A DNA stretch of 64,000 bases from Thiomicrorhabdus sp. Milos-T2 (GTDB taxonomy: Bacteria > Pseudomonadota > Gammaproteobacteria > Thiomicrospirales > Thiomicrospiraceae). The stretch is taken from positions 1,076,917-1,140,916 of the forward strand of contig NZ_KL370891.1 of the NCBI RefSeq assembly GCF_000702325.1, in the 5' to 3' direction. The notes beneath the pieces are model-generated. The model made no database searches. It was not told the origin of the DNA and was given only the letters and a program-made list of their open reading frames with translations. Of the stretch, positions 5,364-60,953 are shown piece by piece; positions within the stretch are counted from its first letter, which is position 1, and each line of letters begins with the position of its first letter. The position numbers were made by a program, and so were the translations under genes.

Positions 5364-5375
5364 ACCAGGCCTGGT
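5364..5375. repeat. ACCAGGCCTGGT palindrome
   Basis: Exact 12-bp palindrome. Its last base is the last base of the metG stop codon, so it lies at the gene end between metG and rnfA. Confidence 0.85.
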
Positions 5376-7671: not shown

Positions 7672-7830
7672 GAGACCTTTGCACGAGATAGGTGCGAAAG
7701 AAAAATGAGAGAAAATTTGCCTGATTGCGGCGGAAAATGCAGCGAATAGCTAGCTATTCGCAAGTTTTTCAACAAAAATCGGGTGAATTTTAACCATTTT
7801 TACTCGTGCATACTCTCGTGCAAAGGTCTC
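7672..7830 (+). mobile_element. GAGACC-family MITE-like element, copy 1
   Basis: A 159-bp element with perfect terminal inverted repeats GAGACCTTTGCACGAG and a central palindrome AATAGCTAGCTATT. The two arms are imperfect inverted repeats over nearly their whole length. It is flanked on both sides by AAATT, a 5-bp target-site duplication. It carries no open frame of its own. It lies between metG and a STAS gene. The orientation called plus here reads GCGAAAGAAAAATGAG just inside the left end. Confidence 0.85.
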
Positions 7831-9870: not shown

Positions 9871-11790
9871 ATGCGCCAGATTATTGAGCAACTTCCTAGT
9901 TATTTAGCCGACCAAATTGCCGCAGGTGAAGTTGTTGAGCGCCCAGCTTCTGTAGTCAAGGAGTTGTTGGAAAATGCGCTTGATTCAGGGGCGACTCAAG
10001 TTGATATTTTGATTGAAGAGGGTGGTGCTAAATCAATCGTTGTTGCGGATAACGGTTATGGAATTCCCAAAGGTGAGCTTTTACTGGCTGTTAGTCGTCA
10101 TGCCACAAGTAAAATTAAATCAGGATCAGACTTGGCAGCGGTAGAAACCTTAGGCTTTAGGGGTGAAGCTTTGGCGAGTATTAGTTCAGTTTCGCGTTTT
10201 GAAGTGGTAAGTCGACATGAATCAGATTCTGCAGCTTGGAAACTGTCGGCAGAGGGTGAAGGAAAATGGGGGCAAGCTCAGCCTACAGCAGGTAAAATTG
10301 GTACTCGTGTGAGTGTTAATGACCTGTTTTTTAATACCCCAGCACGTAAAAAATTTTTACGCACAGCTAAAACCGAATTCTCCCAAATTGACCAGTTAGT
10401 TAAGCGTGTCATGTTAAGCCGTCCCGAGGTAGGGTTTAAACTGGTCCATAACCAAAAGATGGTTCGTCAGGTCTTTACTGCAAATGATAGTGCAAGCTTG
10501 CAAAAACGACTGAGTCAATTAATGGGAACTAGCTTTGTTCAACAATCTCTTGCGATTGAATTTGAGACACAAGATATAAAATTGTCTGGTTGGGTTGGTT
10601 TACCTACGTTTAATCGAAGCCAAACAGATATGCAATACATTTTTGTAAATGGTCGTATTGTGCGTGATCGTTTACTCTCTTACGCGGTAAAACAAGCGTA
10701 TGCTGATGTGCTTTACCATGGACGACATCCCGCATATTTGATTTTTATTGAGATGCCTCATGATTTAGTTGATGTAAACGTGCATCCAGCAAAATATGAA
10801 GTGCGATTTGCGAATGGACGTTGGGTGTATGATTTTTTACGCCGCAGTGTGAGAGAGGCGGTAGCAAAGCCTGTGGTCTCAGAAACGGGAACTGGAGCAT
10901 CTTTAGAATCAGTTATAAATCCAGGTGGTTTTCTGAATCAATCTGCGACCTCTCAAGAAAGTATGCGTTTTCAAGCGCCAGTAGAAGGTTGGCAAAATTC
11001 AAATAGCGCAGGCGGAAGTTACAATGCTAACTTAGGTGAGATAATTCAGCAGCGTCGCGAGGATGGGGGAATGCTTGATTCTTCGTCTATGAATAATGCA
11101 TTGAACGTATCAGAATTAAGCGGAAAATACGCCGCTGAACAAGAACGAACTAATGCAACGCCAGGCAATACAGAACTTGGCAATACAGAATCGGGTAATG
11201 CAAATATGCCGATGCTTGGTTTTGCAAAAGCTCAATTGCATGGTGTGTTTATATTGTCAGAAAACCAGCAAGGCTTAGTTTTAGTTGATATGCATGCGGC
11301 TCATGAGCGGGTGGTTTATGAGCGCTTTAAAGCCCAGTGGCAAAATGACCGTTTAATTAGTCAACCATTATTGGTGCCTATGGCAATGGCATTTGAACAA
11401 TCACAAATTGCAATTTGGGAAGAATATCAAGCTTTATTTGCAAAGTTAGGCTTTGAACTGGAAGCGCTTGGACCGGAGCAATTAAAAGTAACCGCTGTGC
11501 CTGTATTATTAGCAAAAAGTGATATACCAGGCCTGGTAAATGACATGATTTCAGATTTAGCGGTTGCAGGGCAAACTCAACAGGTTGAAGAACGTATTAA
11601 TCATATTTTATCGACTATGGCATGTCATGGTTCGGTAAGAGCAAACCGTCAGTTAACGATTGCAGAAATGAACGCTTTATTGAGAGAAATGGAAGTCACT
11701 GAACGTTCAGACCAATGCAATCATGGCCGACCTACCTGGGTTCAATTATCCATGAATCAGCTCGATAGTTTGTTTATGCGTGGTCAATAA
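9871..11790 (+). CDS. mutL: DNA mismatch repair protein MutL
   Basis: A 639-residue GHKL-ATPase that couples MutS mismatch recognition to strand incision. The ATPase motifs are ENALDSGAT (about 35), DNGYGI (about 62) and GFRGEALASI (about 96). The C-terminal half has DMHAAHERVVYE, ACHGSVR and CNHGRPT, the metal-binding set of endonuclease-type MutL, so this protein probably nicks DNA itself, unlike the Escherichia coli protein. A glycine/asparagine-rich linker with near-repeats (GNTELGNTESGN) joins the halves. The gene begins the conserved mutL-miaA-hfq string. Confidence 0.97.
   Translation: MRQIIEQLPSYLADQIAAGEVVERPASVVKELLENALDSGATQVDILIEEGGAKSIVVADNGYGIPKGELLLAVSRHATSKIKSGSDLAAVETLGFRGEALASISSVSRFEVVSRHESDSAAWKLSAEGEGKWGQAQPTAGKIGTRVSVNDLFFNTPARKKFLRTAKTEFSQIDQLVKRVMLSRPEVGFKLVHNQKMVRQVFTANDSASLQKRLSQLMGTSFVQQSLAIEFETQDIKLSGWVGLPTFNRSQTDMQYIFVNGRIVRDRLLSYAVKQAYADVLYHGRHPAYLIFIEMPHDLVDVNVHPAKYEVRFANGRWVYDFLRRSVREAVAKPVVSETGTGASLESVINPGGFLNQSATSQESMRFQAPVEGWQNSNSAGGSYNANLGEIIQQRREDGGMLDSSSMNNALNVSELSGKYAAEQERTNATPGNTELGNTESGNANMPMLGFAKAQLHGVFILSENQQGLVLVDMHAAHERVVYERFKAQWQNDRLISQPLLVPMAMAFEQSQIAIWEEYQALFAKLGFELEALGPEQLKVTAVPVLLAKSDIPGLVNDMISDLAVAGQTQQVEERINHILSTMACHGSVRANRQLTIAEMNALLREMEVTERSDQCNHGRPTWVQLSMNQLDSLFMRGQ
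11526..11537. repeat. ACCAGGCCTGGT palindrome, in mutL
   Basis: Exact 12-bp palindrome inside mutL, read as the codons CCA GGC CTG GTA (PGLV). Confidence 0.8.
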
Positions 11791-23075: not shown

Positions 23076-23116
23076 AAAAAACCCGAGTTACCAGGCCTGG
23101 TAACTCGGGTTTTTTT
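23076..23116 (+). terminator. Terminator after ppiD built around ACCAGGCCTGGT
   Basis: A 40-bp perfect palindrome without a loop: AAAAAACCCGAGTT, the 12-bp ACCAGGCCTGGT, then AACTCGGGTTTTTT. The GC stem and T-run make it a bidirectional terminator whose tip is the dispersed palindrome. Confidence 0.85.
23090..23101. repeat. ACCAGGCCTGGT palindrome, in terminator
   Basis: Exact 12-bp palindrome at the tip of the ppiD terminator. Confidence 0.85.
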
Positions 23117-30261: not shown

Positions 30262-30273
30262 ACCAGGCCTGGT
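30262..30273. repeat. ACCAGGCCTGGT palindrome
   Basis: Exact 12-bp palindrome, extended to TACCAGGCCTGGTA. It lies between the convergent ends of the small membrane protein gene and fdxA. Confidence 0.85.
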
Positions 30274-43999: not shown

Positions 44000-44011
44000 A
44001 CCAGGCCTGGT
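44000..44011. repeat. ACCAGGCCTGGT palindrome
   Basis: Exact 12-bp palindrome in the 504-base gap between the divergent phnA and clpS genes. The rest of that gap is AT-rich. It has a GAGACC-CTTAAAAA-GGTCTC mini-hairpin at 44335-44354 and no other recognised feature. Confidence 0.85.
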
Positions 44012-44713: not shown

Positions 44714-46954
44714 ATGTTAAGTAAAGAATTACAAATGACTCTAAGCAATGCATTTAGTGTGGCGCATGAGTATGAGCATGAATTTGTTACCTTAGAGCAT
44801 TTATTGTTAGAGCTTATTGGTGTGCCAGCGGTGCAAGAAGTGATTAATGCTTGCGGTGCAGATGTGATTACGATTGAAGAAGGTTTAGAGAAATTTTTAG
44901 AATCTGAAATGGTTTCGCGTAAACCTGATGAGTTGCAGCCAACAATGAGTTTTCAGCGTGTCATTGAGCGCGCCATTTATTTGGTGCAATCTAACGGCTA
45001 TCCAGAAGTAACGGCCGTTCATGTATTAGCCTCCTTATATGCAGAACAAGATTCTCAAGCCGTGTTTTTATTAGAAAGTAACGGTGTAGAACGTGTTGAT
45101 GTACTGAGCTTTTTATCGCATGGCGTTACGGCCAGTGAAAGTGATGACTATTTACCGGCAACCAATGAAGATGAAGCTCAATTAGAGTCGGATGGCGAAG
45201 CTAAAAAATCACCTCTTGAAAGTTTTACCAGTAATTTAAATCAAGCTGTCGTTGACGGTAAAGTTGACCCTATTATTGGAAGAGAGTGGGAATTAAATCG
45301 TACATTAGAAGTATTAAGCCGACGTCGCAAAAATAACCCCTTATTAGTCGGTGAACCCGGCGTAGGTAAAACTGCGGTTGCAGAAGGTTTAGCCTATCAA
45401 ATTGTGCATGAAAAAGTACCAGAGTCTTTAGCTGATGCGGTTGTTTATAGTCTGGATATGGGTGCCTTGTTAGCTGGTACGCGCTACCGAGGCGACTTTG
45501 AAAAGCGTTTTAAAGCTTTATTAAAAGCCTTAGAATCAGAAGAACATGCTATTTTATTTATTGATGAAATTCATACCGTCATTGGTGCTGGAGCAGTGCA
45601 GGGTGGCGCAATGGATGCATCTAATTTAATGAAGCCCTCTCTTTCTTCAGGGCGTTTACGATGTGTAGGCGCCACCACCTATGAAGAGTTTCGTGGTGTA
45701 TTTGAAAAAGATCGTGCCTTGGCTCGTCGTTTTCAAAAAGTCGATGTAAAAGAACCCACGCATCAAGAGAGTTTTGAGATTCTAAAAGGTTTAAAACCAA
45801 AGTATGAAGCGCATCATAATGTTAAATATACTCTGCCAGCATTAAAAGAAGCGGTTGCACTGTCGGCACGCTATTTAACCGATCGTCATTTGCCAGATAA
45901 AGCGATTGATGTGATAGATGAAGCTGGCGCTAAACAAGTTTTAGCGGTAGCTAGTAAGCGTAAAAAACAAATTGGTGTGCACGAGGTTCAACAAGTTGTA
46001 GCAAGTATTGCACGTATTCCAGTGTCGCAAATTACTCAAAAAGAAAAAGACAAATTGTTTGATTTAGAAGCCAATCTAAAACGGGTTGTGTTTGGACAAA
46101 ATCATGCAGTTGAAAAGCTAACCTCTGCGGTTCATTTAGCTCGTTCAGGTTTAAATAATCCAAATAAACCCACGGCATCTTTCTTATTTGCAGGGCCTAC
46201 AGGTGTGGGTAAAACAGAATTAAGTCAGCAGTTAGCTAATCATATGGGAGTGGAGATGCTGCGCTTTGATATGTCAGAGTACATGGAGCGCCATACCGTT
46301 TCTCGTTTGATTGGTGCACCTCCAGGCTATGTCGGTTATGACCAAGGCGGCTTATTAACCGAAGCCGTCGCTAAAAACCCTCATTCAGTGGTTTTACTGG
46401 ATGAAATTGAAAAGGCGCATCCAGATGTCTTTAACTTGTTATTACAGGTAATGGACCACGGAACCCTAACCGATAACAATGGCCGTAAAGCCGACTTTAG
46501 AAATATCACGTTAATCATGACCTCAAACGTGGGGGCAGAACAAATGGCACGCAGTAGTATGGGCTTTACCACTCAAGACCACACAATGGACTTTGATGCC
46601 GAACTCAAAAAAGTGTTTACCCCCGAATTTAGAAACCGTTTAGACGGCATTATTCAGTTTAATCGATTGTCTGAAGAATCAATGGAATCGGTTGTTAACA
46701 AGTTTATTTATGCCCTAGAGAATGCTTTGGCAGATAAAAAAGTCAGTCTAAAAATTAGTGATGCAGCAAGAGCATGGTTAGCCAAAAAAGGCTATGACCC
46801 TCTAATGGGTGCACGACCAATGGAACGTTTGATTCAAGAGAAAGTAAAACAGCCTTTAGCTGAAAAGTTATTGTTTGGAGAGTTGCAGCAGGGCGGTGAA
46901 GTGTTTGTTGACTGTAAAGAAGATGCATTAACCTTTGAAAAGGTTGAAGATTAA
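44714..46954 (+). CDS. clpA: ATP-dependent Clp protease ATPase subunit ClpA
   Basis: A 746-residue double-AAA+ unfoldase that feeds ClpP. The N-terminal double-Clp domain (about 1-145) binds ClpS. The first AAA domain has the P-loop GEPGVGKTA (about 213) and FIDEIHT. The second has GPTGVGKTE (about 495), LLDEIEKAH and GARPMERLIQ. The length is normal. No terminator is obvious. A 39-bp direct repeat ending in the ACCAGGCCTGGT palindrome begins 52 bases after the stop codon. Confidence 0.98.
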   Translation: MLSKELQMTLSNAFSVAHEYEHEFVTLEHLLLELIGVPAVQEVINACGADVITIEEGLEKFLESEMVSRKPDELQPTMSFQRVIERAIYLVQSNGYPEVTAVHVLASLYAEQDSQAVFLLESNGVERVDVLSFLSHGVTASESDDYLPATNEDEAQLESDGEAKKSPLESFTSNLNQAVVDGKVDPIIGREWELNRTLEVLSRRRKNNPLLVGEPGVGKTAVAEGLAYQIVHEKVPESLADAVVYSLDMGALLAGTRYRGDFEKRFKALLKALESEEHAILFIDEIHTVIGAGAVQGGAMDASNLMKPSLSSGRLRCVGATTYEEFRGVFEKDRALARRFQKVDVKEPTHQESFEILKGLKPKYEAHHNVKYTLPALKEAVALSARYLTDRHLPDKAIDVIDEAGAKQVLAVASKRKKQIGVHEVQQVVASIARIPVSQITQKEKDKLFDLEANLKRVVFGQNHAVEKLTSAVHLARSGLNNPNKPTASFLFAGPTGVGKTELSQQLANHMGVEMLRFDMSEYMERHTVSRLIGAPPGYVGYDQGGLLTEAVAKNPHSVVLLDEIEKAHPDVFNLLLQVMDHGTLTDNNGRKADFRNITLIMTSNVGAEQMARSSMGFTTQDHTMDFDAELKKVFTPEFRNRLDGIIQFNRLSEESMESVVNKFIYALENALADKKVSLKISDAARAWLAKKGYDPLMGARPMERLIQEKVKQPLAEKLLFGELQQGGEVFVDCKEDALTFEKVED

Positions 46955-47006
46955 CCTGTTATTAATATTTCCTAAATGAATCATTTCTAGGTTCTGCCCT
47001 GTGCTT

Positions 47007-47045
47007 ACAAAATATAGATAGCCACAGGGGTTACCAGGCCTGGTA
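47007..47045 (+). repeat. 39-bp direct repeat, left copy
   Basis: Begins ACAAAATATAGATAGCCACA and ends with TACCAGGCCTGGTA. It matches 50829-50867 at 35 of 39 bases in the same orientation. The two copies bracket the accessory patch between clpA and infA. The exact palindrome lies at 47033-47044. Confidence 0.85.
47033..47044. repeat. ACCAGGCCTGGT palindrome
   Basis: Exact 12-bp palindrome at the right end of the left direct repeat, downstream of clpA. Confidence 0.85.
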
Positions 47046-47157
47046 AAACTGTCTCAATACATTTAATTATCCAAAATTGCCTATGTCCAATACTGAATAC
47101 GCACAAAAATAAGTAAAAATAGTTACTTGTTAGTGTGTTTTGCATTAATATGCGTTT

Positions 47158-48006
47158 ATGTTTCTTATTTTTTCACTTCATCTATTTTTGCAGCGTTTCA
47201 CTCATGCGAATGCTGTCGTTTTCGCAAACACTTTGCAAACCAAACTAAGCTTTGTATTACCTATCACCCAAAAACGCTTAAATTCAAGTGAAAAGCTCTA
47301 TAAACGTTCTTTAATCTCAGAAGATCAGTTGCTACAAGTCAAACAAGCGCAAATCGAACAAACTCAAGACCTCAATATAGAAAAGCTCAGAATTGACAGT
47401 ATCAAAGCCCAGTTAAGGCAAGTTCAATCTCAGCAAGCCTCACTACAAAGCCAAACCAAACAAGCTCTGTTACAGCAATTGGTGGACGCCAATAAACAAA
47501 TCGAAAACCTACAACAAGAACAAATCAAAGCACAACAACGTCTAGCGCTTTACGAGATTAAAGCCCCAATAGACGGTACCGTGCAACAACTTGCTACCCA
47601 TACCATTGGTGGCGTGGTCACACCCGCCCAAGAGCTTATGGTCATTATGCCTAAAAACCAACAGCTAGAAGTCGAAGCCATGTTGTTAAATAAGGATATA
47701 GGTTTTGTGCATGAAGGCCAAGCGGTAGAAGTCAAAATAGACACCTTTAACTTCACCAAATACGGCGTAATCCACGCCAAAATTAATAATATCTCCAGTG
47801 ATGCCGTACAAAATGAAGATTTAGGCCTTGTCTACGCCATGCGTTTAAACATAGAAAAAAATCAAGTCTATGTCGATAACCAACAAGTCAAACTTAGCCC
47901 CGGTATGCAAATCACCGCAGAAGTTAAAACCGGCACCAGACGTATTATTGAATATCTGTTAACGCCTTTACTGCGTTATCAGAATGAAAGTATTAGGGAG
48001 AGGTAA
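47158..48006 (+). pseudogene. HlyD-family secretion adaptor, 5'-truncated
   Basis: A 282-residue frame holding the coiled coil (about 50-130), the lipoyl half-motif YEIKAPIDGTVQQLATHTIG (about 138) and the C-terminal beta-barrel of type I secretion membrane-fusion proteins (DIGFVHEGQAVEVKIDTFNF, then SPGMQITAEVKTGTRRIIEY). Normal members have about 430-480 residues with an N-terminal membrane helix and a first lipoyl half, both missing here. The present start (FLIFSLHLFLQRFTHANAVV) is not the family N-terminus. No ABC transporter or outer-membrane partner lies nearby, so it is probably a remnant. Confidence 0.8.
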
Positions 48007-48008
48007 AT

Positions 48009-48074
48009 ATGATAAATGAGCCGAAAAAGCATAAATCAATCGAGTCTGAAAGCATTGATGTGCTAAGTTTTTAG
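48009..48074 (+). CDS. Very short ORF between hlyD remnant and membrane protein
   Basis: A 21-codon frame (MINEPKKHKSIESESIDVLS, then F) behind a good GGGAGAGG ribosome-binding site. Its stop codon is followed by GGAGAGG, which serves the next gene. It is either a real small peptide or leader, or the cut N-terminus of a once longer gene. No similarity recognised. Confidence 0.3.
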   Translation: MINEPKKHKSIESESIDVLSF

Positions 48075-48083
48075 GAGAGGACA

Positions 48084-48824
48084 ATGTACTTTTTTCACAT
48101 ACTTGTTATTGTTTTTATTGCTTTTCTATTGTCTTTTTCCTTTAGAAAAAAACTGAATTGGAGCGAGTTTAAAAAAATAAGAATGAATCGTCCCTATCTA
48201 CGCTCTAGATTTGTTGTGTGTATTAGAAAAACTATTAAGATTGTTTCTCCGCATTTTTGGGGTCGAAATGCTTACACAAAAGAGGGGCGAAAGTCTGTCC
48301 CAGTTGGCTATGCGTTTCTCAATTTTCTTCAAACCATTTTTATATTATCTCCTTTTCTGATGTTAATTGAAACTGGGTTATCAGATATTAAGTTGAATAA
48401 CGTATCTAATGGCGAGTACATAATTCAACAAGCTCTAGTTGAAGAATTTAAAAAATCATTTACTAGAAAGAATGGAGCAACACACACTGCAAAGTTTAAG
48501 CTCGTTTTTGAGGGTGGAGCCAAGCAAGTTTTTAAAGCAGACCCAAATATCTTTACGAAGAATTTTGCTGCTTCAGAATTATCTATGCTTGAAGGTCATA
48601 ACGTTGAGGTAGCCTATTTTGAAACATTATTTAGTGGTCCTTACGTTGTTAGTCTGCGATATAAATCAAAAGAAATTATATCTATAAAAAACGCCTTGAA
48701 TGAATACAAACAATGGGGAGTTTCTTACCAGAATATTATTTTGTTTTTATTTGTAGCGCTATTTTCAGCAATCTTGAAGTTCAAACTATATGGCTACAAA
48801 AATTTTTATAAGAGAATTAAATAA
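48084..48824 (+). CDS. Membrane protein, unknown
   Basis: A 246-residue protein with hydrophobic segments at about 3-20, 82-98 and 219-238. A middle soluble region of about 110 residues contains KFKLVFEGGAKQVFKADPNI. The ribosome-binding site GGAGAGG is good. No known family recognised. It lies in the accessory patch between clpA and infA, unlike its conserved neighbours. Confidence 0.6.
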   Translation: MYFFHILVIVFIAFLLSFSFRKKLNWSEFKKIRMNRPYLRSRFVVCIRKTIKIVSPHFWGRNAYTKEGRKSVPVGYAFLNFLQTIFILSPFLMLIETGLSDIKLNNVSNGEYIIQQALVEEFKKSFTRKNGATHTAKFKLVFEGGAKQVFKADPNIFTKNFAASELSMLEGHNVEVAYFETLFSGPYVVSLRYKSKEIISIKNALNEYKQWGVSYQNIILFLFVALFSAILKFKLYGYKNFYKRIK

Positions 48825-48841
48825 CATTAAGGATAGTTGGC

Positions 48842-48931
48842 ATGAGCACCAATACCGTAAAAGCAAATGAAGATATTAAAAAAAATGGGACGCTACCCTT
48901 TTTTATCCCTGAAATAAATGTTATTCTCTAA
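48842..48931 (+). pseudogene. Small gene N-terminus, probably split by the RAYT insertion
   Basis: An ATG with TAAGGA upstream starts MSTNTVKANEDIKKN, and then the frame enters the REP sequence at 48887. A matching C-terminal scrap without a start codon lies beyond the transposase at 49652-49738. Joining the two would give one small hydrophilic protein. This reading is an inference. Confidence 0.4.
48887..48904. repeat. REP inverted repeat, left of RAYT
   Basis: GGGACGCTACCCTTTTTT, the perfect reverse complement of 49591-49608 on the other side of the transposase gene. Confidence 0.8.
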
Positions 48932-48933
48932 CC

Positions 48934-49602
48934 ATGCCTAGATTAGCCCGAGTTGTTATACCCAATATTCCTTATCATATTACCCAGCGTGGTAATCGAC
49001 GTGATGATGTGTTTTTTGATGATGAAGACCGTGAATTTTATTTACAAACGTTAAAAGAATACGCTAAAAAATTTGCAGTTGAGGTTTGGGCTTATTGCCT
49101 AATGACCAATCATATCCACCTTATCTTGAAGCCTTCAACGGAAAAAGGTTTGCAGCAAGTACTGAAGCCTTTACATATGCGTTATGCACAATACATTAAT
49201 AAAAAGATGGGTTGGAAAGGTCATTTATGGCAAGGTCGGTATTTTTCATCCGCTTTGGATGAGGCTTATACTTATTCTGCTATACGTTATGTTGAGCAGA
49301 ATCCAGTAAGAGCTGGAATGGTTAAGGACGCATCAGAGTATGTTTGGTCTAGTGCGAGAGCACATCTTGGATTAGAGTCTAATGAAATTTTGTCATCCAT
49401 ACCCGCTAGCCATGCACCCAGCACGGTAGAGCAGTGGCATGAGTATTTAGGTGAAAATAATGCCAAAGAATCAATAGATATCATCAGACGTAATATAGAG
49501 AAAGGTTTACCTTGTGGAAATGCCGAGTTTATTGAAAACTTGGAACAACAATCGAAAAGAGATTTGAGTTATAAACCAATTGGAAGGCCTAAAAAAGGGT
49601 AG
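48934..49602 (+). CDS. REP-associated tyrosine transposase (RAYT, IS200-like)
   Basis: A 222-residue Y1-transposase-type protein. PRLARVVIPNIPYHITQRGN opens the domain, the HUH metal-binding histidines are in YCLMTNHIHLILKP (about 55-68) and the catalytic tyrosine is expected in YTYSAIRYVEQNPVRAGMV (about 112-130). Such single-copy domesticated transposases nick REP hairpins and spread them. Perfect 18-bp inverted repeats flank it, the right one overlapping its last codons, and further REP copies occur at 49617 and 50742. The protein appears complete. Confidence 0.92.
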   Translation: MPRLARVVIPNIPYHITQRGNRRDDVFFDDEDREFYLQTLKEYAKKFAVEVWAYCLMTNHIHLILKPSTEKGLQQVLKPLHMRYAQYINKKMGWKGHLWQGRYFSSALDEAYTYSAIRYVEQNPVRAGMVKDASEYVWSSARAHLGLESNEILSSIPASHAPSTVEQWHEYLGENNAKESIDIIRRNIEKGLPCGNAEFIENLEQQSKRDLSYKPIGRPKKG

Positions 49603-49608
49603 CGTCCC
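49591..49608. repeat. REP inverted repeat, right of RAYT
   Basis: AAAAAAGGGTAGCGTCCC, the mate of 48887-48904. It includes the transposase stop codon. Confidence 0.8.
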
Positions 49609-49616
49609 CTTTTATT

Positions 49617-49651
49617 AGTTTATTGGGGGAACTTTATAACGTCCCCTTTTT
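49617..49651 (+). repeat. REP-like element, second type
   Basis: A 35-base sequence with GTTTATTGGGGGAACTT followed by ATAACGTCCCC. It is nearly the reverse complement of 50742-50776. It is adjacent to the right RAYT repeat and shares its CGTCCCC end. Confidence 0.75.
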
Positions 49652-49738
49652 CCAGAGCAAACTGAGTCAAAGCAAAAACCACTTTCATGGGGTGAGCTTA
49701 AAGAGAAAGTAACCAGTTGGTTTAGCGGCTGGTTTTAA
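49652..49738 (+). pseudogene. C-terminal coding scrap after RAYT
   Basis: A 28-codon open stretch without a start, PEQTESKQKPLSWGELKEKV then TSWFSGWF and a TAA. The lysine/tryptophan pattern looks like coding sequence. It probably belongs with the N-terminal scrap at 48842. Confidence 0.4.
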
Positions 49739-49797
49739 GAAATAAAGATAAAATTTTTTTAGATAAGTAGCATTTAGAGATTAGAGAGGATAGCACA

Positions 49798-49869
49798 ATG
49801 GCAGATGTAATTAGATTAGGCGTGTTTTTAACTGCCATTTATGTAAATAATGCTTGTCAATTAATGTAA
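49798..49869 (+). CDS. Very short ORF with strong ribosome-binding site
   Basis: A 23-codon frame (MADVIRLGVFLTAIYVNNAC, then QLM) after AGAGAGGATAGCACA. The hydrophobic middle could span a membrane. It may be a small peptide gene or a truncated remnant. No similarity recognised. Confidence 0.3.
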   Translation: MADVIRLGVFLTAIYVNNACQLM

Positions 49870-49975
49870 AAACCGGACAGTATTCTTTATTTTTTTTTGA
49901 TAAGTTATTGATTTTAAATTAATAAAAGTTGTGTTTTTTAAAAATACTGTCCTATTTCTCCAAGAAAATTTGTTA

Positions 49976-50392
49976 TTAACGCGGGTTCATTCTTTCTGGT
50001 GGAGCAACAACCTGGTATTGCTGCAAGTGATGATCATAAATATACCATGAACCTCTGGCATTATAATAAATACGGTGTTCATAACGCACCACTCTATGGT
50101 TTGTGGGGATTTGATTTACTCTAACACCTATTGGTGCGGCAATAACTTCGTAGCCGTTTGGTGAGTTGCGGTAAAACACACCATTAGAATAATATTGGTC
50201 TGGGCCAGCAGGCGCATGTTTTTTGGGAAGCGTGGCAATGATGCTGCCAATCACAACACCTGCACCTAAAAGAATTAGGCCGTCCGCATTGCCACCACCA
50301 CCATGACCGCCGCCACCCATGCCTCCTCTTGGTGCAGCGCAAGATGATAAAAGTAAACTGCTCATTAGGCCTAGAATAATAATTGTTTTCAC
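49976..50392 (-). CDS. Lipoprotein with Gly/His-rich linker, DUF6515-like
   Basis: A 138-residue predicted lipoprotein. The signal peptide ends at the lipobox LLLSSC (cysteine about residue 18). A glycine/histidine-rich stretch (GGMGGGGHGGGG) and one hydrophobic segment (LILLGAGVVIGSIIA) follow. Then comes a tyrosine-rich domain, YYSNGVFYRNSPNGYEVIAA and RIYYNARGSWYIYD, similar to the DUF6515 type of surface proteins. It starts at GTG 50392 after AGGAGCAC. Function unknown. It follows the small lipoprotein gene upstream on the same strand. Confidence 0.7.
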   Translation of the reverse strand: MKTIIILGLMSSLLLSSCAAPRGGMGGGGHGGGGNADGLILLGAGVVIGSIIATLPKKHAPAGPDQYYSNGVFYRNSPNGYEVIAAPIGVRVNQIPTNHRVVRYEHRIYYNARGSWYIYDHHLQQYQVVAPPERMNPR

Positions 50393-50437
50393 GATTGTGC
50401 TCCTGCAATGTCTATTTGCTATATTGAGTTGTGACTT

Positions 50438-50677
50438 TTATCTTTGTGGCCTATTGTTTGCAGGTACGCAAGCTAATTCACCTTCTCCTTGAGGCGGAGC
50501 TTTACATGTACCTGTCATTTCACCGCGAGATGATGTTACCGTACAGCTTTGTCCTGCACTTTTACTTTCACAGGCGGTAAATGCTTCAGCAGGAGGTTTT
50601 GCTCCTTTGCCATCTTTTTTGCCACCACCTTGTTGATTAGGGCCGCTAGCACAGGCGGTGATAGAGAGTGTTGTCAT
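50438..50677 (-). CDS. Small cysteine-rich lipoprotein, start uncertain
   Basis: A 79-residue frame from ATG 50677 with a lipobox-like SITAC only ten residues in, then a glycine/lysine linker and a domain with four cysteines (FTACESKSAGQSCTVTSSRG, GTCKAP, LACVP). The signal peptide looks too short. The frame continues upstream as KSSIFIL without a usual start codon and reaches the ACCAGGCCTGGT palindrome at 50699-50710. The true start may have been lost, or an unusual codon may be used. Confidence 0.6.
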   Translation of the reverse strand: MTTLSITACASGPNQQGGGKKDGKGAKPPAEAFTACESKSAGQSCTVTSSRGEMTGTCKAPPQGEGELACVPANNRPQR

Positions 50678-50698
50678 TAAAATAAAAATAGATGATTT

Positions 50699-50710
50699 AC
50701 CAGGCCTGGT
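50699..50710. repeat. ACCAGGCCTGGT palindrome at lipoprotein gene start
   Basis: Exact 12-bp palindrome lying where the start codon of the small lipoprotein would be expected. Confidence 0.85.
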
Positions 50711-50741
50711 AAATTGAGTTTATGTTTGCAAGAGGCTATAT

Positions 50742-50777
50742 GAAAAGGGGACGCTATGAAGTTCCCCCAATAAACCC
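50742..50777 (-). repeat. REP-like element, second type, inverted copy
   Basis: GAAAAGGGGACGCTATGAAG followed by TTCCCCCAATAAACCC, the near reverse complement of 49617-49651. Confidence 0.75.
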
Positions 50778-50828
50778 AGACTCTATTGATTTTAGACTTT
50801 GAACTCACCTCTGCTATTAGTAGAGCTA

Positions 50829-50867
50829 ACAAAATACAGATAGCCACAGGACATACCAGGCCTGGTA
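50829..50867 (+). repeat. 39-bp direct repeat, right copy
   Basis: Begins ACAAAATACAGATAGCCACA and ends with TACCAGGCCTGGTA, the same direction as 47007-47045 with four differences. It marks the right edge of the accessory patch. The palindrome lies at 50855-50866. Confidence 0.85.
50855..50866. repeat. ACCAGGCCTGGT palindrome
   Basis: Exact 12-bp palindrome at the right end of the right direct repeat. Confidence 0.85.
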
Positions 50868-50940
50868 GAACAGGTTGAACTAAAAACTTAAATCGTTAAT
50901 GGCAGACTAAGTAACGCAACCTCTATATACATTGGGCAAT

Positions 50941-50979
50941 AAAAAACCCCTTAGAGCAATTTGCGCTAAGGGGTTTTTT
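50941..50979 (-). terminator. Terminator after infA
   Basis: AAAAAACCCCTTAG pairs with CTAAGGGGTTTTTT around an 11-base loop. It can act in both directions and closes the infA unit 37 bases after its stop codon. Confidence 0.85.
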
Positions 50980-51015
50980 ATTTAGAAAGGTTTTTAATTT
51001 CTCAACTTACCGGGT

Positions 51016-51234
51016 TTATTTACCGCGGTAAGTAATACGTCCTTTAGTTAGGTCGTAAGGGGTTAGTTCAACTTTAACAGCATCGCCTGCAAGAATTCGG
51101 ATATAGTTTTTACGCATACGTCCTGAGATGTGTGCCAAAATTTGGTGACCGTTTTCTAATTCTACTTTAAACATTGTGTTAGGTAGAGTTTCTAGAACGA
51201 CACCGTCGAACTCAATTACGTCTTGCTTAGCCAT
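51016..51234 (-). CDS. infA: Translation initiation factor IF-1
   Basis: A 72-residue S1/OB-fold factor that binds the ribosomal A site during initiation. The sequence [20 protein letters not shown], then [20 protein letters not shown], is close to the Escherichia coli protein, and it ends RITYRGK. The length is exact. clpA, infA and aat are neighbours in many gammaproteobacteria. Here a 4-kb patch has come between clpA and infA. Confidence 0.98.
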
Positions 51235-51538
51235 ATTCTTATTTAAAACCTTTTCTATAAAAAATTGTGCGCGGATTATAACAAACTTATTTGTTTTATT
51301 TCAAATAATTAACCGTTATTTACTGATTTATCCTTATGAATAGTGTTAAAAGCGTTTTTTGCAGGGGATTGTGAGAGTAGTTGTGAGAGTAGATGAGTGA
51401 AGGATAAAGGCGAAAATTTTCTATCTTTAGTCTATAAAACAGGTTAGTAGTTGGCTGTGATGCAGTTTTTTAGATTAAATCTTGAGAATTTTGTCACTTT
51501 ATCCTTCATTTTTAGACTCGTACAAAGGTCTATGGAGT

Positions 51539-60917: not shown

Positions 60918-60953
60918 AAAACCGAAGCTACCAGGCCTGGTAACTTCGGTTTT
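60918..60953 (+). terminator. Terminator after acs built around ACCAGGCCTGGT
   Basis: A 36-bp palindrome with one mismatched pair: AAAACCGAAGCT, the 12-bp palindrome, then AACTTCGGTTTT and more T residues. It is the second terminator with this motif at its tip. Confidence 0.85.
60930..60941. repeat. ACCAGGCCTGGT palindrome, in terminator
   Basis: Exact 12-bp palindrome at the tip of the acs terminator. Confidence 0.85.

Follow-up and report, generated by a model that had tools for sequence, protein, structure and literature searches.

The genes clpA and infA of Thiomicrorhabdus sp. Milos-T2 (genome G000) are separated by a patch of accessory DNA in a 64,000-nucleotide stretch of contig NZ_KL370891.1 (positions 1,076,917 to 1,140,916 of the forward strand), the whole of which was analysed and is called the window below. 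The patch contains three copies of a 12-bp palindrome, ACCAGGCCTGGT, which is iterated throughout the genome and is the main subject of this analysis. The contents of the patch agreed with the original prediction, which had described an HlyD remnant, a membrane-type open reading frame (ORF), a RAYT-like gene, gene scraps and two lipoprotein-like ORFs. The features of the interval are the following, in window coordinates, with REP standing for repetitive extragenic palindrome.

44714-46954, plus strand: a gene that we take to be clpA from knowledge of the family and from the original prediction; an orthologue is present in 58 of 58 genomes of the family
47003-47049, plus strand: left edge repeat, consisting of the 22-bp module ACAAAATATAGATAGCCACAGG and the palindrome TTACCAGGCCTGGTAA
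47033-47044, no strand: iterated palindrome ACCAGGCCTGGT in the left edge repeat
47158-48006, plus strand: 5'-broken hlyD, type I secretion adaptor (TIGR01843, profile positions 171-422; about the first 170 positions are gone)
48084-48824, plus strand: membrane-type ORF of 246 aa without a Pfam or NCBIfam match
48879-48910, plus strand: imperfect inverted repeat of the GGGACGCTACCC type beside the RAYT-like gene, partner at 49585-49616
48934-49602, plus strand: RAYT-like/IS200-like transposase (PF01797, 1.9e-19; NF047646, 75 bits, below the cut-off of 80)
49618-49650, plus strand: REP-like arm with an inverted partner at 50743-50775 (33 nt, 94% complementary)
49976-50392, minus strand: lipoprotein-like ORF (DUF6515, 1.1e-14)
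50438-50677, minus strand: lipoprotein-like ORF of 79 aa without a family match
50699-50710, no strand: iterated palindrome ACCAGGCCTGGT, third copy of the patch
50825-50871, plus strand: right edge repeat, module and palindrome
50855-50866, no strand: iterated palindrome ACCAGGCCTGGT in the right edge repeat
50938-50982, plus strand: terminator hairpin shared by clpA and infA, also present in the empty intervals of relatives
51016-51234, minus strand: infA (PF01176, 1.3e-28)

The clpA region was compared across 20 sister genomes, and eight empty intervals were examined base by base. In 14 of the 20, the two genes are 118-267 bp apart (between match ends), in agreement with the earlier claim of an accessory patch in a normally tight junction. 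An insert was found in two (G009 and G030), and infA lay outside the compared stretch in four (G027, G007, G033 and G035). In a protein tree of clpA and dnaE, G000 groups with G015 (0.955 support) and then with G009, and G010 and the pair G021/G030 fall outside. Of these genomes, G000, G009 and G030 carry the insert, and G015, G010 and G021 do not. An identical hlyD break is found in all three inserts, with a change to the next frame between the membrane segment and the remainder; apart from the broken hlyD, the inserts differ in content. The most parsimonious history is a single old insert followed by decay and several deletions, with repeated exchange as the alternative. The patch is ordinary decaying accessory DNA with three palindrome copies.

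Gene scraps at 49650-49870 of the window (a PLSW-ELKEKVTSWF-GWF tail and a MADVIRLGVF start) match parts of the G030 insert, in which two adjoining paralogues of 288 and 290 aa without a Pfam family lie beside a 2OG-Fe(II) oxygenase. In G018 (C1:1282491-1284712) and G031 (C1:34982-37214), clpA is in two frames, which may be a frameshift, a real break or an assembly error.

The direct repeats of 39 bp that had been described at the edges of the patch were found as predicted (47007-47045 and 50829-50867, 35 of 39 bases identical). The match is in fact longer and covers 47003-47049 and 50825-50871, with 87% identity over 47 bp. Both 39-bp repeats end in the shared 12-mer palindrome, and the original prediction had missed a third copy in the patch, the 14-mer TACCAGGCCTGGTA at 50698-50711. 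The 22-base remainder of the edge repeat is a local module. It has two copies in the whole G000 genome and is tandemly repeated at the left edge of the G030 insert (period 37 bp, 3.1 copies). At the right edge, the flanks of G009 and G000 are homologous, and G009 lacks the module there. The right edge repeat is probably a G000-specific duplication. Because the module is local and the palindrome occurs genome-wide, the bracketing on both sides is most plausibly a local duplication specific to G000, beside a common palindrome.

The original prediction had instead taken the edges for an insertion site or for the product of recombination between two such sites. A role of the 39-bp repeats as termini of a mobile element, or as sites of a recombination that brought in the DNA between them, would fit the presence of the patch in G000, G009 and G030 and its absence elsewhere, but it is hardly probable. 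None of the eight empty intervals contains the 39-bp repeat, so that the single-repeat empty site looked for in sister genomes was not seen, and this already contradicts the insertion view. Further arguments against it are that the palindromic end has 498 exact copies genome-wide, that the module is local and its right-edge copy is missing in G009, and that the hlyD break is common to three species with differing inserts, which indicates that the insert is old and decaying. An attachment site, a target duplication and an integron-like cassette were ruled out by the empty sites together with the genome-wide counts, and no tRNA or Rfam element (at the gathering threshold) was found within the window. 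In G017, the empty interval contains one lone palindrome, in the dialect of that genome, within a longer, nearly symmetric arm, ACCGGACAGGCCTGTTCGGT.

The 498 exact copies of ACCAGGCCTGGT in the 2.66-Mb G000 genome compare with 0 copies of the reversed control. The 12-mer occurs at 188 per Mb (0.19 per kb) and its 8-bp core, CAGGCCTG, at 311 per Mb (0.31 per kb). Nine copies lie in the window, where the pattern with at most two mismatches had 19 matches against 1.1 expected and a maximum of 4 in 100 shuffles. Besides the three copies in the patch, they are the following, none of them assigned to a strand.

5364-5375: iterated palindrome, intergenic, position kept in G009 and G015
11526-11537: iterated palindrome within an ORF (IPGLV), identical in G030 and altered in G009 and G015
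23090-23101: iterated palindrome that forms the apex of a hairpin resembling an intrinsic terminator, retained in G009 and G015
30262-30273: iterated palindrome in a convergent gap
44000-44011: iterated palindrome in the divergent gap upstream of clpS
60930-60941: iterated palindrome that forms the apex of a hairpin resembling a terminator

Counts of the 12-mer ranged from 0 to 718 among 31 same-genus relatives. A class-wide sample of 369 genomes included 365 from outside the family, and none of these had more than 5 copies. The core was found 409-1133 times in 30 of the 58 family genomes, referred to as motif-rich, and 0-74 times in the other 28, referred to as motif-poor; the reversed control had at most 36 copies. 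With rounded genome sizes, core density was about 155-550 per Mb across the motif-rich genomes, and, G000 aside, only G063 and G079 exceeded 500. High counts of the palindrome are thus confined to this family within the genomes of the class that were searched. A pattern scan of named genomes gave mostly single chance matches in unrelated bacteria among the best 80 of 104 matches, and Thiomicrorhabdus, Thiomicrospira and Hydrogenovibrio records were among the matches listed.

A search of the literature, excluding subscription papers and preprints, found no paper containing ACCAGGCCTGGT, none joining "uptake signal sequence" with Thiomicrospira, and none joining CAGGCCTGG with genome, repeat and Gammaproteobacteria; judged by title or abstract start, the matches listed included no report of such a motif in the family. 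The excerpts of a paper on Hydrogenovibrio genomes mention palindromes solely as CRISPR (PMC6501319).

Dialects were determined from over-represented 10-mers in 14 genomes with at least 55 kb of sampled DNA. ACCAGGCCTGGT is the dialect of G000, G009, G015, G018, G021, G030 and G036. G023 uses ACCGGCCGGT instead (33 copies in 80 kb and 1025 genome-wide, at most 15 in each of the other 57 family genomes). The dialects of G005 and G035 are of the AACAGGCCTGTT and AGCAGGCCTGCT type, respectively, both with many mixed arms such as CAGGCCTGGT, and G025 has a mixed CAGGCCTG core. No such over-represented motif was present in the sampled DNA of G003, G019 and G024.

In 464 kb of G000 there were 85 perfect copies, 40 copies with one mismatch and 30 with two, and 133 cores. 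Of the 40 one-mismatch copies, 30 deviate at one of the two outer positions of an arm. A one-armed unit, CAGGCCTGGT read in one direction, was considered and rejected: one arm was kept and two bases of the other changed in 36 sites, against 85 full palindromes, so that the full palindrome is the main form in G000. The arm picture is more mixed in G005, G025 and G035 than in G000. The extended G000 consensus, AANYT-ACCAGGCCTGGT-ARNTT, is symmetric and 22 bp long. Adenine was enriched on both sides of the centre, at a distance of about 10-11 bp in G000, G015, G009, G005 and G025 and of 11-12 bp in G023; this A-tract was weaker in G021 and G030.

The placement of the copies was assessed with a simple ORF rule, by which ORFs make up 86% of the bases in the 464 kb. 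In the same DNA, 36 of the 85 copies were intergenic, compared with 14% of the bases (p 3e-10), and 49 were coding. The coding copies mostly read QAW or PGLV. Per kb of gap, copies numbered 0.86 in convergent (11 sites), 0.59 in tandem (21) and 0.28 in divergent gaps (4). Symmetric arms were longer in intergenic than in coding copies (mean 2.81 vs 0.84). Two of the nine window copies lie at the apex of a terminator-like hairpin, and a simple terminator rule was passed by 3 of the 85.

Conservation was examined in codon alignments of 162 reciprocal-best gene pairs from sampled stretches of G000 and G015. The 12-mer was identical in the orthologous partner for 10 of 24 G000 copies and 9 of 11 G015 copies, a shared copy entering both counts; the background for a 12-mer was 6%. 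A further 10 G000 copies and 1 G015 copy differed by one base, and 34 of 35 orthologous site alignments were gapless. The orthologous identity and the gapless alignments indicate that copies are kept, and that they arise and decay by substitution in place. The genome-wide palindrome is apparently kept by selection. In a BLAST mapping of all sites, identity was found for 28 of 47 intergenic pairs (2.7 expected) and for 14 of 27 coding pairs (1.2 expected), figures in which the palindrome itself may anchor the pairs and which include at least one non-syntenic pair (60930 of G000 with 22416 of G030). Because of this, the conservation claim rests on the codon alignments. ORFs shared with G015 had 25 sites in 160 kb and unshared ORFs 2 in 59 kb (p 0.027), the unshared set possibly including false ORFs or genes outside the sampled range of G015.

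Copies were present in each of 20 G000 stretches of 20 kb, with a Poisson-like distribution (mean 3.80, variance 3.75, at least one copy per stretch), and therefore cover the chromosome. Spacing in G018, G072 and G036 was taken from the first 68 listed places of each genome. Intervals shorter than 1 kb made up 0% in G072 (0 of 67) compared with 16% expected, 6% in G036 (16% expected), and 15% in G018 (28% expected). G036 contains one 83-kb interval without the 12-mer; in the 80 kb of it that were sampled, we counted 0 copies of the 12-mer and three cores. Its GC fraction is 0.45-0.49 in four pieces vs 0.52 elsewhere, and among 10 of its larger proteins are a TrwC relaxase, an integrase-core transposase, type II secretion parts and an RTX protein. 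Strongly constrained core DNA is also without copies, since a core-free stretch of 37 kb in G072 covers the region of EF-Tu, the ribosomal proteins and rpoA. In G018, a gap of 16 kb contains ordinary genes and three cores.

Self-recognition in DNA uptake has been described for Pasteurellaceae and Neisseriaceae (PMC1626085, PMC1939737). Uptake signals are described as numerous, more often perfect than near-perfect, favouring non-coding DNA and arising by substitution; they have dialects, and AT tracts lie one helical turn from them (PMC1626085). The palindrome shows over-representation, an excess of perfect over one-mismatch copies (85 vs 40), non-coding preference, substitution origin and dialects, and also an AT-rich flank one helical turn away (A at 10-12 bp in six genomes), as in the uptake signal sequence (USS). 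The copies kept at orthologous positions, their scarcity in unshared ORFs and in the 83-kb interval of G036, and ComEC in every motif-rich genome are further arguments for uptake. With about even confidence, we therefore suggest that the palindrome may best be read as a DNA-uptake signal. In the proposed mechanism, the palindrome would be bound by a receptor on the cell surface that belongs to the natural-transformation machinery, and fragments with the palindrome would be imported preferentially. Together, biased uptake and recombination would maintain copies and multiply them where the core genome tolerates them. Dialects would change along with the receptor, and copies would decay once specificity or competence was lost. 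We infer both the reading of the palindrome by an uptake receptor and uptake as the selective force. The wider proposal, to which we give somewhat less than even confidence, is that sequence-specific uptake has arisen a third time, in free-living sulfur-oxidising autotrophs, with a signal that is palindromic at its core, is flanked in several species by phased A-tracts and would therefore be read by a symmetric (dimeric) receptor, and with dialects from ACCAGGCCTGGT to ACCGGCCGGT that may act as mating barriers between species sharing vents and sediments.

ComEC, the inner-membrane uptake channel, exceeded the cut-off in all 30 motif-rich genomes and in 20 of the 28 motif-poor ones (Fisher p 0.0016, relatedness ignored), and several of the eight family genomes without it are incomplete or distant. 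In motif-poor G020 (74 cores), ComEC is in two pieces about 37 kb apart (C1:88072-89325 and 50689-51309), and in motif-poor G031 (39 cores) no ComEC was found over the cut-off.

Both known systems offer parallels. The DNA uptake sequences (DUS) of Neisseriaceae, including the kingDUS/simDUS pairs of Simonsiella muelleri, likewise have hundreds to thousands of copies, a strong consensus, species dialects, coding as well as intergenic copies, terminator association and overlapping symmetric pairs, and their CTG core is contained in ACCAGGCCTGGT (PMC3630211). The 1294 overlapping dyad-symmetric DUS pairs of S. muelleri, for which dimer-based recognition was suggested, provide a precedent for a symmetric signal (PMC3630211). 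Unlike DUS, the palindrome occurs in an unrelated family, is flanked by A-tracts, and has its full form as the commonest one in G000 (85 of 133 cores in 464 kb); the G023 dialect lacks CTG. Single-divergence copies are more numerous in Neisseriaceae (PMC3630211). With the USS of Pasteurellaceae the palindrome shares the excess of perfect over single-mismatch copies, non-coding preference, substitution origin, AT-rich flanks about one helical turn away, and the existence of dialects, two of them clade-specific in Pasteurellaceae (PMC1626085). The USS differs in being asymmetric, with AT tracts on one side, in its density of about 1 per kb, and in that uptake has been shown by experiment (PMC1626085).

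Several observations speak against an uptake signal. The ComEC association is one-sided, because ComEC is also present in most motif-poor genomes. No receptor was found: the sole pilin search (PF12019, GspH/FimT type) matched 3 of 58 genomes, all motif-poor and none of them G000, and a GspH/FimT pilin is improbable as receptor. The G000 density of 0.19 per kb for the 12-mer and 0.31 for the core compares with about 1 per kb for uptake sequences (PMC1626085). Known USS and most DUS are not palindromic, whereas the G000 motif is, and highly iterated palindrome 1 (HIP1) of cyanobacteria has several of the same traits (palindrome, replacement dialects and outermost deviations). The A-tract was not seen in G035 (26 sites) or G036 (8 sites) and was weak in G018 (13 sites). 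Only 85 of 133 G000 cores are the full 12-mer, and flanks vary in G005, G025 and G035. Finally, the copies are not clearly evenly spaced: interval variation was no lower than random in G018, G072 and G000 and was raised in G036 by the 83-kb gap, and there was no deficit of short intervals in G000.

The parallel with HIP1 suggests that the palindrome could be an iterated element of that kind, tied to DNA methylation and methyl-dependent repair or recombination rather than to uptake, which we consider unlikely, though with an appreciable probability. HIP1 and the alternate HIPs of cyanobacteria are also short iterated palindromes with symmetric extensions that are replaced by other palindromes in related species, and the concentration of single deviations on the two outermost arm positions (30 of 40) is much as in HIP1 (PMC4390886). 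GGCC outside the motif was rarer than expected in G000 (693 vs 1012), which could fit a GGCC-linked history of modification or restriction; in the 464 kb, CCGG outside the motif was less scarce (583 vs 699 expected). HIPs reach 500-2500 copies per Mb, a density that the 188 (12-mer) and 311 (core) per Mb of G000 do not attain, and each HIP is generally paired with a matching methyltransferase (PMC4390886). Here two large methyltransferase families do not follow the motif: PF00145 (C5 family) was found in 8 of 30 motif-rich and 12 of 28 other genomes, PF01555 in 9 of 30 and 10 of 28, and 16 of the 30 motif-rich genomes, G000 included, had neither over the cut-off (the D12, type I and Eco57I-like families were not searched). 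In the absence of an association across the 58 family genomes, C5 and PF01555 methyltransferases were rejected as companions of the motif. Sites 10-11 bp from the centre lie beyond the expected reading range of a methyltransferase, and it is at this distance that the A-tracts occur. The hexamer AGGCCT was not avoided outside the motif (65 observed vs 55 expected), which argues against a HIP-like element and also speaks against restriction-site avoidance, although GGCC is scarce.

A 22-bp symmetric consensus with phased A-tracts also resembles the site of a dimer, and the copies might be sites of a dimeric chromosome-organising protein (a nucleoid, segregation or occlusion factor) distributed across the chromosome. 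We regard this as quite unlikely. The site layouts of MatP, SlmA and Noc are not known to resemble the hundreds of copies, with 0 of 20 stretches empty, seen here; divergent gaps had the lowest density of copies (4 sites, no statistical test), and unshared ORFs had few; and perfect copies exceed one-mismatch copies (85 vs 40), unlike the sites of regulators (PMC1626085). It is very unlikely that the palindrome is a transcript-level element that forms terminator or mRNA-end hairpins. The two window copies at hairpin apices, the longer symmetric arms of intergenic copies and the highest density in convergent gaps would be consistent with such a role, but 3 of 85 copies only were terminator-like by the simple rule and 49 of 85 lie within ORFs. 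The RAYT-like gene in the patch, with its inverted REP-like arms, suggests a dispersed family of REPs or miniature inverted-repeat transposable elements (MITEs) moved by this transposase, an explanation of almost negligible probability. The 34 of 35 gapless orthologous alignments differ by substitutions, with no unit inserted. The RAYT-like gene, moreover, has flanking inverted arms of its own, of the GGGACGCTACCC type, with just 2 such arms in 464 kb, and so the iterated palindrome is not the repeat of this gene and, in the alignments made, has no insertion origin. On these two grounds, a RAYT/REP origin of the palindrome was ruled out.

Pasteurellaceae and Neisseriaceae are mostly host-associated. 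If the palindrome is an uptake signal, it would provide an independent case, in free-living autotrophs, for how such signals start, change their spelling and vanish. If its function is not uptake, hundreds of copies, many of them kept at orthologous sites, would still need an explanation. The unsolved question of HIP1 is touched as well, as the iterated palindrome here follows neither of the two large methyltransferase families.

Other repeats were also seen in the sampled DNA. A second dispersed repeat, GAGACCTTTGCACG...CGTGCAAAGGTCTC, forms MITE-like inverted pairs 148-248 bp apart, in the window at 7672/7820, 9497/9645, 12831/12979, 25518/25691 and 61113/61361, with others elsewhere; GAGACCTTTGC, which belongs to this repeat, had 78 matches in 464 kb of G000. 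The 10-mer TAGCTAGCTA has 8 copies in the window and 35 in 464 kb (0.3 expected), possibly in tandem. In 100 kb of G019, about 97 copies of a repeat with TTTCTTAGCTGCC / GGCAGCTAAG resemble a CRISPR array, presumably of the I-F repeat type.

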